From: Camillea tinctor
Taxonomy: Eukaryota; Ascomycota; Sordariomycetes; Xylariales; Xylariaceae
Direction of reading: 5' to 3'
DNA: 64,000 bases
NCBI GenBank assembly: GCA_022578605.1
Contig: MU394064.1
Span: forward strand, 310,001-374,000
The first letter of the stretch is position 1, and every line of letters starts with the position of its first letter. This document shows positions 18,160 through 46,697 of this stretch, piece after piece. The position numbers and the translations under genes are program-made. A model generated the notes under the pieces. That model made no database searches, had not been told where the DNA came from, and saw only the letters and a program-made list of their open reading frames with translations.

Positions 18160-19309
18160 CGTGGCGCGAACTAGCTTAGTGCCAGAATGGAAATCGTTTG
18201 GCCGGTACCTTTGGAAGTTAGGTTTTTATATTGTGTATTATATCGACATGTAGAGCTTAAAAGAATAGGCAGGTAGCTAAATGTAATGTTTTCTCGCGGC
18301 TGGAGGGAATATATATAATACAGAATCGGAGAACAATGAGCACTCGGTTCTTGTAGAGAATTTTGTTTCTCGGTTTAGTTTTCTGTTCCAAACCAATTGT
18401 GACATGTCATATATAAGGATCTACGTGTGTGGTAGACACGTAAGCAAGCTTGATCGGTTCACAATATCGAAGGATGGGATAGGAGGCTCAGGAAAGTGCA
18501 AAAGTATATGATCTACTTGTATGTACAAATCAGTTGCGTAGATCTGCCACGACGACCATTTATTGGTCAATATTCACATGTTCTTCAATCAAACTATTCG
18601 GCGTGTATTGACATCCTTGGTGATAGAGTCATCATTAAGATAACAGCCAGGACTGCTGTTGCCTAATAAGCAATGCTCTACATCTGCAAATAAACAGTTT
18701 AACTTAGCTATTGTATATTGTCAAGCAAAAGCGAACGCTAATAGCTTGTTGGCTATTAGCTCATATATAGCCCGTGACATATATCTATTACTTTTTGGCT
18801 TTTATTCTTAACTCAGCAGTCAACACTACAAAATCTGTGCTAACAAGAATACGAAATGGGAACCTACGGGAGATCACAAACCTTTCACGGGAGATAGTTA
18901 CGTCAACTCGTACGTACAAATTTTATTGTACCTATACTTCTGGGTTGCATAATCAGGTTTGTGTCATCGTTAATAACTAGTTCATAATACAGCCTTGCGT
19001 TGAAATAGTAATATCGCCCGGTTTGTTAGCACTTCTCTTACATATTACACGCACCCATCCGAGCAATATGCTATAATGCGGCGTACGTATCGATGGTAAC
19101 CCGACTTATCATCTTATCCCTCTTTACTCAGCCAAGCCGTTGAGAAGAGCTTTTAACCCAATATCACATGGCACACATCAAAAGCTTACCTACCTTATAC
19201 CTGAAATACTCTCTCTATTCCTCGGGGACTGTTGCGCTTATTGTATCCCTTTATCTGTCACATCATTTCTTACTTGTCATGTTGCAGCTTAAGGAAAACG
19301 AGTCCCGGC
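18160..19309. other. Divergent promoter of AAA ATPase and NLR
   Basis: 1.15 kb shared upstream region between the minus-strand ATPase and the plus-strand NLR. It contains copy A of the small element at 18719-18779, roughly midway. An in-frame ATG at 19232 would add 26 residues to the NLR but reads as a hydrophobic, unconserved leader, so I place the NLR start at 19310. Confidence 0.6.
18719..18779 (+). repeat. Small dispersed element, copy A (61 bp, with 5-bp duplication)
   Basis: The element begins TGTCAAGC and ends CCGTGACA, giving TGTCA/TGACA inverted ends. TATAT stands immediately on both sides (18714-18718 and 18780-18784) as a possible 5-bp target duplication, although TATAT is low in complexity. 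Inside are arms GCTAATAGC and GCTATTAGC around a 6-base loop, which would form a stable hairpin. It matches copy B inside the HET gene end to end. It has no coding capacity. TG...CA ends with a 5-bp duplication also recall a very short solo LTR; a MITE is the other option. Confidence 0.78.
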
Positions 19310-43617: not shown

Positions 43618-45677
43618 ATGAGCGGTCAACTCCCAGCACCATTCCAGTTTTCCCGGGTGACCCCGGGTTGCTTTCGACTTGTCACCCTTCTTGCATGCCA
43701 AACCGGCGGACAGATATCATTTAAAACGGTAGATGTCACACTCGAGAAAGCAAAGAAACTCAAATATACGGCGATTTCTCATTCATGGAGCCACTTCAAA
43801 CATGTAAAGCTAAAAAACAAATGCTAATAGCTTTTGGCTATTAGCTCATATATATAGTCCGTGACAAAACACCTACCGAAAGAACAGATCCTTGTGAATG
43901 GTGCTTCGTTCAGAGTGCCTGCGAGCCTATATCGTCTGTTCAGGCAATTATTACAAGAGAATACCCATGATATTAACATGTGGACCGATGCCCTTTGTAT
44001 CGATCCCAACAATATGCAAGAGAAGTCGATACAGGTCGGAATGATGGCTGAAATTTTCAGCCAATCTGAGAGTGGGATTATGTGGCTAGGGATCCAAGAT
44101 GAACGGGATGCAGCAGAGGACCCAAATGGGAGATATCTGAGCAGCGCATTTGCCATGATGACGCTCCAGGGCGAAGAATTTCGGGATTGCTTTGAGATTG
44201 GGCTATATGGTCGACCCCGAATAGGGGGGGAGCATCGAAATCAATACCAAGCCTTTACAAAATTGCTCAGCTTCAGTTGGAGGCAGATTTGGGTGGTACA
44301 GGAAATGGTCCTGCCTCCTAAAATTGAATTTCGTTATGGAGACAATCGATTCCGGTATGAGGACTTGATGGAGGTGAAAAATGGTTTGAGACGTCATGAT
44401 GAAGAAACCAAGAAGTTCACAGATAGTTTCATCGCCGATGAATTCGACCCCCTACTGAACTTTGAACAAATCGTCCCACCGATGATCACTACCCAAGAAG
44501 ATTGGCACGCCCGCCGTGGATTAACATTGCCTGAACTTCGGAGAGATTTGCGACTTCTAAAGCAGGATGGCATTAAGACCTTTTCTATGGTCTTCTGGGC
44601 ATGGTTCGGGATTGGGATCATGCAGGACGACTACAGCCAGACTACACCATTCATGAGACGAAAGCAATAAGACAAGCTATCCATCACTGCTTGATCGTTG
44701 AGGGCGACCTCCAATTTCTTTGAGGTCTGCGCCTCCGCGGGGCCATGAGCCCAGATTCCTCATGGGTTGCTGATTTTCACGCCCAGTCAATGTCCTCCAA
44801 GATTGCCTGGGGGGAGCTGAAGCGCTTTCAAATGACCGCAGTGCCTAGACCAGCCAAAGATGCAGTGCCTAAGCCTCAATTACTAGATCGTGGATCACTT
44901 CTTCTAGAAGCAAGTCAGGTGTCCCCAGTGAGCAAGGTTGGTCTGGCGTGTGATCCTCAAACAGATCTCGTCAATGTCATTTCTGTGCTTGAGAACTGGC
45001 AGAACTTGGTATTCGGAACTTCTGATATGGAATGGCCGAAAGGGATGCCGGCCGAAGGAAGCGATCAGGATCAATTTTGGAGAGCCATCGTCAACAACTG
45101 CGTTCCTGCTTTGGAGTATGGGATATATGACTAGGCCACTGACACTCAATATAATACATTGAGACAGCTATGGGGGCTTTGTACCATGAGATTCTTGGGG
45201 CTCCCTCTTTGGGAGATAGTCCAAAGATTTCTGGAGTTACCACGTCCGTCTCTTGGTCGGGTCCAAAGAATGGCTTTGGCACTTTGGGCACTGGTCACAT
45301 CGCCCTGGGACGGCCTCTCAACTCTTCTGGGTGACAATGCTAACGCCAATATCAAAATCAGCGACCACGAACAGAGGCAAATCGAGAGTATCATTTTTGG
45401 TCATGCACCGGAGTTAGCATATCATCTTCTTGTATGCCTCTAGGGACGAAAGATTATTGTCACAAAGGATGGACATATTGGCTTAGCGCCTGCTGCAGTC
45501 CAAAAAGATGACATTGTCTGCTTGTTCAAAGGGTCTAAAATCCCGTTCATTGTCCGAAGATGTTGTGTCAAGGGCCCGAAAGAGACATACGAGATTATTG
45601 GGGACGCCTATATCTGCGAACTCATGAAGAAGAAAAAAGAATCATCTCGAGAATGGAAAGAAATGGAGATACACTAG
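43618..45677 (+). pseudogene. Broken HET (heterokaryon incompatibility) gene with element-borne intron
   Basis: A HET-domain protein can be followed from MSGQLPAPFQF through YTAISHSWS, ILVNGASFRVPASLYRL, MWTDALCIDPNNMQEKS and GIMWLGIQDE to the usual C-terminal region ending VTKDGHIGLAPAAVQKDDIV and EIIGDAYICELM. Exon 1 is 43618-43803 and exon 2 starts at 43858; the 54-bp intron lies wholly inside copy B of the small element. The frame then breaks: a shift near 44646, followed by in-frame stops TGA 44721, TAG 45132 and TAG 45441, before the natural end at 45675. HET proteins trigger cell death when unlike strains fuse. This copy should make at most a truncated 269-residue-plus N-terminal product (stop 44668), so it is either dead or a short HET-only form. 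Confidence 0.85.
43803..43866 (+). repeat. Small dispersed element, copy B (64 bp) containing a whole intron
   Basis: Starts TGTAAAGC and ends CCGTGACA. It is flanked by AAACA on both sides (43798-43802 and 43867-43871), a clean 5-bp target duplication. The hairpin arms GCTAATAGC and GCTATTAGC match copy A. The element plus one duplication is 69 bp, exactly 23 codons; removing them rejoins the HET frame as HFKHLPKEQ. Inside it, GTAAAG at 43804 is a donor, GCTAAT a branch site and TATATAG ending at 43857 an acceptor. Splicing removes 54 bp and leaves five extra codons in frame; without splicing the frame stops at a TAA within the element. Confidence 0.85.
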
Positions 45678-46697
45678 ACTCTGATGTTCCCAAGTCACGG
45701 TGTTAGAATCAGGTGGCTGGGGTACATACGCTTCACAAACAATGTGAGGAGCTGAACTTCTGAAGAGATGAACACTAGCTTGGGATCAGAACCACGAAGC
45801 TATTCGTATGTAAACAACCACGCTACTCTACGTCGTCACCTAGGTAGATTGATTCATCGCACAACAAGAATAACATTTTCTTGTATCTTGGGGTTCGCAT
45901 TGCGATAGAAGAGCTAGAGCACATATATAAAGTGATGAATTTCAAGAGAGTTCTTTTCTTAAGGAGTTATTTACATTCCACAAGATATATATATCCCCAT
46001 AATTTTGCTATTCATTCTCCCTTTAACTCAAATTGTATGATAACAAGATGTTGTAGATTGGTGATATACATTAGTCACCCTCATCGCCTCATATAACCAA
46101 GGGTAATTGGTCTCCTTATACCAAGTTCGTTAGGTATCGTGGTGAAATACTCTTATTTGATAACGGGTTGAATCCCTATTCGCCAAAATGATGCTGAAGT
46201 GTTTTCATTCTATATCTGGGTTACAGGGGATATATCGTGTCATCATCAACGTAGTAGTCCGGTGGGGGCCAAACCACAACAGCTCTTCATGCCAGCCAGT
46301 AGCTAATATTATATGTAGGTAGGTACCTAGGTAATCAATGAACCCGGGTGGATACATGACAGATAGATTTGACGAAGTTATGAAGGGGCCATCTAACACA
46401 ATCTTATCATATAAATCTTCCGCGGTATATGTACTGTTTAATAGTAGTCTCGAATATAATAGCCATTAGGTTGTCACGATATAGTGTTGCATCCATTCTC
46501 AGGCTTTTGCAGGAGGATTAGTTACTAAATATAGAGTGGGGGGGAGCGCGAAAATATTACTTCAGCTTTGACTGACATGATATATATCTATACTCGCCTC
46601 TCCATGAGCAATCCTTTTTAAAACCACTTTTCACATTCAATCATAGACTAGAAGAAGCCTGTACAGTGCTTTAGAGATATGTCAAGTCCTTCACACA
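45678..46697. other. Spacer, nothing coding seen
   Basis: About 1 kb of AT-rich DNA between the HET pseudogene and the ankyrin-type gene, with a GTAGGTAGGTACCTAGGTA cluster near 46315-46333. Short frames have no motifs. Confidence 0.6.

Follow-up and report, generated by a model that had tools for sequence, protein, structure and literature searches.

A 64-bp mobile element was found inserted in the coding sequence of a HET gene in the window analyzed here, a single stretch of 64,000 nucleotides of the Camillea tinctor genome, and 54 bp of the element could be read as an intron. On the sequences compared, the insertion and the element family are solid, while the HET intron is a possible candidate. 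We interpret the family, with a probability of roughly 0.75, as a DNA-type, non-autonomous micro-element with incidentally splice-competent ends; the HET copy would then be a latent intron and not a proven introner. The features on which this interpretation is based are listed in Table 1.

Table 1. Features of the HET gene, its inserted element, and the other family member located in the window (positions are those of the window).
Feature	Positions	Strand	Basis or remark
HET gene, first coding part, ATG to candidate donor	43618..43803	+	runs up to and includes the first T of the element
HET gene, second coding part	43858..44670	+	opens with nine bases of the element, followed by the right AAACA
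Mobile element copy, subfamily B, 64 bp	43803..43866	+	sequence; aligned with 48 other copies
Target-site duplication AAACA, left	43798..43802	+	sequence
Target-site duplication AAACA, right	43867..43871	+	sequence
Candidate intron GT...AG, 54 bp	43804..43857	+	frame analysis and homologue
Candidate donor GTAAAG	43804..43809	+	weak: no +5 G, no +6 T
Candidate branch site GCTAAT	43823..43828	+	A 30 nt before acceptor, within hairpin stem
Alternative branch candidate CTCAT	43845..43849	+	A 9 nt before acceptor
Conserved 9-bp hairpin	43823..43845	+	arms 43823-43831 and 43837-43845
Frame change (frameshift) in HET homology	44565..44580	+	against the 652-codon paralogue L081; exact place is our reading
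Stop codon in downstream HET homology	44721..44723	+	
Stop codon in downstream HET homology	45132..45134	+	
Stop codon in downstream HET homology	45441..45443	+	
Other family member in the window (61 bp, subfamily A, TATAT duplicated)	18719..18779	+	site does not look coding

A preliminary description of this DNA had reported a 64-bp element with TGT/ACA ends and a perfect 5-bp AAACA on both sides, with a 54-bp GT...AG interval wholly inside it. The sequence at 43798-43871 bears out the element and its duplication, and the interval coordinates agree as well, with GT at 43804-43805 and AG at 43856-43857. The copy itself (43803-43866) reads TGTAAAG...CCGTGACA. Unspliced, the HET frame stays open for 79 codons only. 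Removal of 43804-43857 restores it to 342 codons from stop to stop, including five extra codons (SVTKH), and removal of the element with one AAACA (69 bp) leaves a single open frame of 337 codons across the empty site. The earlier claim that taking out these 69 bp rejoins the HET frame is thus correct, but it is weak as evidence, since splicing with this geometry leaves 15 nt that contain a stop in only one frame in three.

Translation of the spliced sequence from the ATG at 43618 gives a product of 332 residues, which belongs to the HET family by its match to PF06985 (65.5 bits against a cut-off of 22.5, whole profile, residues 50-211). A protein search with this product returned nine proteins, one of them the window's own. 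The closest other homologue, P0002 (39% identity over 83% of the query), is without exactly five residues at the insertion site, and the next 33 residues align gap-free. The other six proteins spanning the site are seven residues shorter there; P0001 and P0008 begin past it. HET matches are numerous in the organism's own genome (24), in line with a filamentous ascomycete. The nearest relative there, L081, consists of a single open frame of 652 codons and is also seven residues shorter across the site. Judged by these alignments, the HET exon at the insertion site is continuous in relatives.

The 44.7-Mb genome was searched for further copies with five mismatch-tolerant patterns, which matched 74, 47, 75, 51, and 24 places (the sets overlap), with zero matches for the reversed controls of all five. 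A loose pattern matched 108 places vs. 39 for its reversed control, and its remaining matches were not counted as copies. Where element ends were set by sequence alone, the 5-bp duplication was perfect in 56 of the 73 copies with flanks, agreed at four of five positions in 10, and at fewer in 7; the 56 perfect duplications comprised 51 different words. A wider census covered 124 copies after exclusion of 3 of 127 sites with more than two mismatches at the left end; it contained 80 perfect, 31 four-of-five, and 13 worse duplications, although the choice of ends could favor the duplication in these counts. Duplications found family-wide in this way exclude a chance origin of the AAACA repeat.

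Copy length was 59–66 bp in 120 of the 124 copies. Four subfamilies were distinguished by the left end: TGTAAAG (B, to which the HET copy belongs), TGTCAAG (A), TGTGGAG (2), and TATGGC (C); their labels in the 124-copy census are rough, two mismatches having been tolerated. The right end and the hairpin are common to all four. As read from the alignment, the terminal inverted repeats of subfamily A measure about 5 bp (TGTCA/TGACA) and those of B about 3 bp, while C has imperfect ones. The duplication has a fixed length of 5 bp, as the definition of a MITE or non-autonomous DNA transposon demands.

Several arrangements of copies were observed in addition. At L016 (1464-1844; G000 C14:446515-446895), two identical 63-bp direct copies enclose 255 bp, with the duplication TCTCC on the outside only, which gives the impression that both copies were transposed together. 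The interior has no match in the genome except itself; a degenerate tRNA-like stretch was seen in it by eye on the minus strand, and neither ARAGORN nor Rfam reported anything at this locus. At L056 (2416-2549, minus strand), one copy each of subfamilies B and 2 are separated by at most 8 bp, and each has its own duplication. L048 (G000 C91:40409-40437) carries half an element: after the left 29 bases, which are those of subfamily B, the sequence is unrelated, and the matching right end was not found in the stretch examined. Sequences of about 52–55 bp that start with TGTCAGGGGTTAG and end with GTGACA were present at L104, L105, and L070, in the last case upstream of its copy; they may represent another tiny family whose ends are of this type.

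The internal hairpin was analyzed in 48 distinct copies. Its nine pairs were standard in 93.3% of cells (shuffled mean 87.5%, maximum for slid positions 54.6%), and the covariation score of 0.177, vs. 0.088 in shuffles, was reached by none of 500 shuffles, which related sequences can nevertheless beat even without structure. In two of the pairs, both partners differ between subfamilies, a count equaled by 400 of 500 shuffles, and the count of further pair types was matched by 493 of 500; neither is informative. The RNA of the HET copy folds at −14 kcal/mol, with 5 of 200 shuffles as stable, and the fold of a subfamily 2 copy is less distinct (27 of 200). By eye, the left-end motifs and the hairpin apex seem to vary jointly by subfamily, with GGCAA in C, GACAA in 2, and GCTAA in B; the joint change involves alignment columns 5-16 and 21-44, as if one subfamily-specific protein bound both.

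The geometry that makes an intron conceivable is a property of much of the family. GT at bases 2–3 together with an AG that leaves 10 element bases was present in 69 of 124 copies, including 43 of 47 in subfamily B. The residue after splicing would comprise 10 element and 5 duplication nucleotides, i.e., 15 nt or five codons, and since only one frame in three of this residue hits a stop, the frame would be restored for two thirds of such sense insertions. A clean frame is therefore to be expected for most of them, the geometry being common to the family. In subfamily C, 20 of 22 copies have the AG without the GT; thus, the family probably retains the AG for something other than splicing.

The splicing signals of the HET copy are less convincing. 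The branch site GCTAAT had been assigned to the hairpin region in the preliminary description; it is located there, but inside the stem and 30 nt before the acceptor. The alternative CTCAT presumably fits a branch consensus. The proposal that the left end of the element supplies the donor GTAAAG holds for the GT; the hexamer as a whole is a weak donor that matches the fungal consensus GURWGY (PMC8469720) at positions 1–4 only. Five donors of local introns, read by hand in actin-family genes, were GTACGT (twice), GTAAGT, GTATGT, and GTACTT. An intron finder written for this analysis was set aside, as none of its 22 candidates, of which four exceeded the cut-off, had a fungal-type donor. Splicing of the HET element at a useful level has, in our judgement and not by computation, somewhat less than an even chance.

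A second sense copy in coding sequence was found at L025 (G000 C39:280272-280334), in a gene of AMP-binding type. Spliced likewise, it would add five codons, and the C51 paralogue, 49% identical across 119 alignment columns, has exactly five residues fewer beside the site. Both confirmed sense coding copies, HET and L025, share the same codon phase with the frame restored, as expected of an introner, and in both, the element lies in an exon with GT at its base 2 and AG near its right end. The L025 gene retains its start and a part matching AMP-binding positions 293-384 at 29.5 bits, just under the cut-off of 29.9; we estimate that a large deletion has removed roughly 200 residues between the retained parts. 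A subfamily 2 copy (L073/L109, G000 C43) is in antisense orientation to an open frame that spans 156 codons once the site is emptied, and a search by hand found no in-frame GT...AG in it. L111 is the third sense insertion site whose open frame is long, but by eye it does not look coding. A home-made coding score, weak in itself, ranked L073, the HET copy, and L025 highest among 73, all three with modest values. None of the copies examined presented a candidate intron in an intact gene.

We propose that the family consists of very small, non-coding, MITE-like elements with TGT...ACA-type ends, an internal hairpin, and 5-bp duplications. Most likely, a transposase or integrase encoded elsewhere would have moved the element via a 5-bp staggered cut. 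The HET copy would have entered, in sense orientation, an exon that its relatives keep continuous, as the duplication and the homologues indicate. The spliceosome could then excise 54 nt and leave the five-codon residue, an arithmetic that the sequence satisfies. Splice competence would be a by-product of the element's sequence and not the family's way of life. As the HET gene is decaying, the insertion need not have been harmless.

A reading that overlaps with this one, and to which we give only slightly less than an even chance, is that the same mobile element is never spliced: the HET copy would simply have mutated an already dying gene by its insertion, and its GT...AG would be incidental. 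The weak donor and the placement of the branch candidate in a stem of −14 kcal/mol argue for it, as does the antisense L073 copy, with no in-frame GT...AG by hand. The state of the host genes points the same way: beside the large deletion in the L025 gene, the HET gene has a frameshift and three downstream stops (Table 1). RIP was considered as the source of these stops and set aside at a TpA/ApT of 0.49 over 43618-45680. On the other hand, no other defect interrupts the spliced HET frame over its first 332 codons, which would allow a short HET protein. Both of the two confirmed sense insertions are also in frame, though two of three frames would permit this by chance.

The distribution of copies bears on whether splicing sustains the family. 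An open frame of 120 codons or more across the empty site was found for 4 of the 112 copies with enough flank (HET, L025, L111, and the antisense L073); in the other 12 of the 124 copies, the flank was too short for 120 codons. Random window sites reached this length in 14.8% of cases at GC below 0.45 (n = 2000) and in 37.4% with no GC limit (n = 3000). The median flank GC over 124 copies is 39.9%. Against 603 window sites of GC below 0.40, the copies reached 80 codons in 24/112 vs. 19.7%, 100 codons in 7/112 vs. 2.8%, and 120 codons in 4/112 vs. 0/603, all controls coming from one 64-kb window and the open-frame test being blind to copies between short exons or in UTRs. The idea that the family avoids coding DNA was dropped, as there was no depletion relative to these equally AT-rich sites. 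The family sits in AT-rich, mainly non-coding DNA, and coding sequence is neither preferred nor clearly avoided; this habitat may reflect AT-rich DNA only.

That the element is a true introner, kept and spread partly via efficient splicing, with the HET copy as a working new intron, appears distinctly unlikely to us. This was the central claim of the preliminary description, and much of its basis stands: a mobile element with a duplication, GT and AG near the ends, and an exon that is continuous in relatives. The 15-nt residue, the two in-frame sense coding copies, and relatives exactly five residues shorter also agree with it, and long open frames are commoner at empty sites than at equally AT-rich sites at the 120-codon threshold. 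A parallel exists in the introners of Aureococcus, which carry both splice sites and add 12 bp (4 of element and 8 of duplication; PMC9860276). The claim falls short in the absence of a coding preference and in the donor, which is weak next to the five local introns. Few copies lie in long open frames, whereas published introners show enrichment in genes in 161 of 175 genomes (PMC9860276). Both host genes are damaged, and the AG right end is shared by subfamily C, which mostly lacks the GT. The genome-wide search proposed earlier did reveal a family of 124 copies, but the expected coincidence of many copies with introns was not seen: two of 124 lie in sense in homology-confirmed coding sequence, a count that would miss copies between short exons or in UTRs. 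The introner label thus fails the one family-wide test run, that of copies on introns or in coding DNA. The element, described earlier as unusually small for an introner, is not so; median sizes of introner families range from 30 to 654 nt (PMC9860276).

It is very improbable that the family represents solo LTRs left by a minute retrotransposon of the TRIM/SMART kind: TG...CA-like ends, 5-bp duplications, and the two-copy direct unit at L016 with TCTCC outside only would fit, but this unit is the sole one of its kind, its interior matches only itself, no tRNA primer site after the first copy or purine tract before the second was seen by eye, subfamily C begins with TATG, and a TATA-like stretch lies near the 3' end.

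Among known systems, MITEs are short, non-coding, and present in many near-identical copies with a duplication of fixed length. The micro-element family is like them in all these respects and differs in being only about 60 bp long, in having terminal repeats of about 5 bp or less, and in its internal palindrome. Giroux et al. reportedly described in 1994, going by the title, a Ds-created intron in maize, i.e., an intron made by a transposable element; the likeness lies in this, while maize Ds is, we assume, a larger hAT element than the present family. PMC3443670 names transposon insertion as one of the ways in which introns are gained, with 35 events from four genera. With Aureococcus-type introners (PMC9860276), the family shares a duplication-bearing element that has both splice sites and adds whole codons (4 + 8 bp there, 10 + 5 bp here); it differs in its 5-bp duplication, in having most copies outside coding DNA, and in that its splicing is inferred only. 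The introner-like elements of ascomycetes and the sister introns of Hypoxylaceae (PMC9860276; PMC8469720) are similar in being short fungal repeats with internal symmetry and exon insertion. According to these papers, however, such elements are without duplications. The ascomycete introner families are described as an outlier in having neither terminal repeats nor duplications and have been interpreted as RNA-based, and fungal introners are biased to genes (PMC9860276); the Camillea family has duplications and no gene bias was seen. Three stretches of the element's letters matched nothing in an open-licence literature library, and titles and abstract openings gave no fungal introner or minute element with duplications, most subscription papers being outside both searches.

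Mobile elements that make precise duplications are seldom as small as this family, whose internal hairpin is kept across subfamilies. A duplication-bearing element in an exon with usable splice sites offers a tangible example, open to testing, of how DNA transposition may give rise to an intron in a fungus. If splicing were proven, the case would be notable because reported ascomycete introners are without duplications. A DNA-transposon-type introner in a filamentous fungus, about 60 bp long, with 5-bp duplications, its sense insertions leaving a multiple of three bases once spliced, and making introns and adding five codons while spreading, is unlikely in our estimate, a little less so than the full introner reading above; if true, it would represent a class reported absent from ascomycetes. 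As interpreted here, the element shows the step that precedes an introner, in which its ends would already permit splicing.
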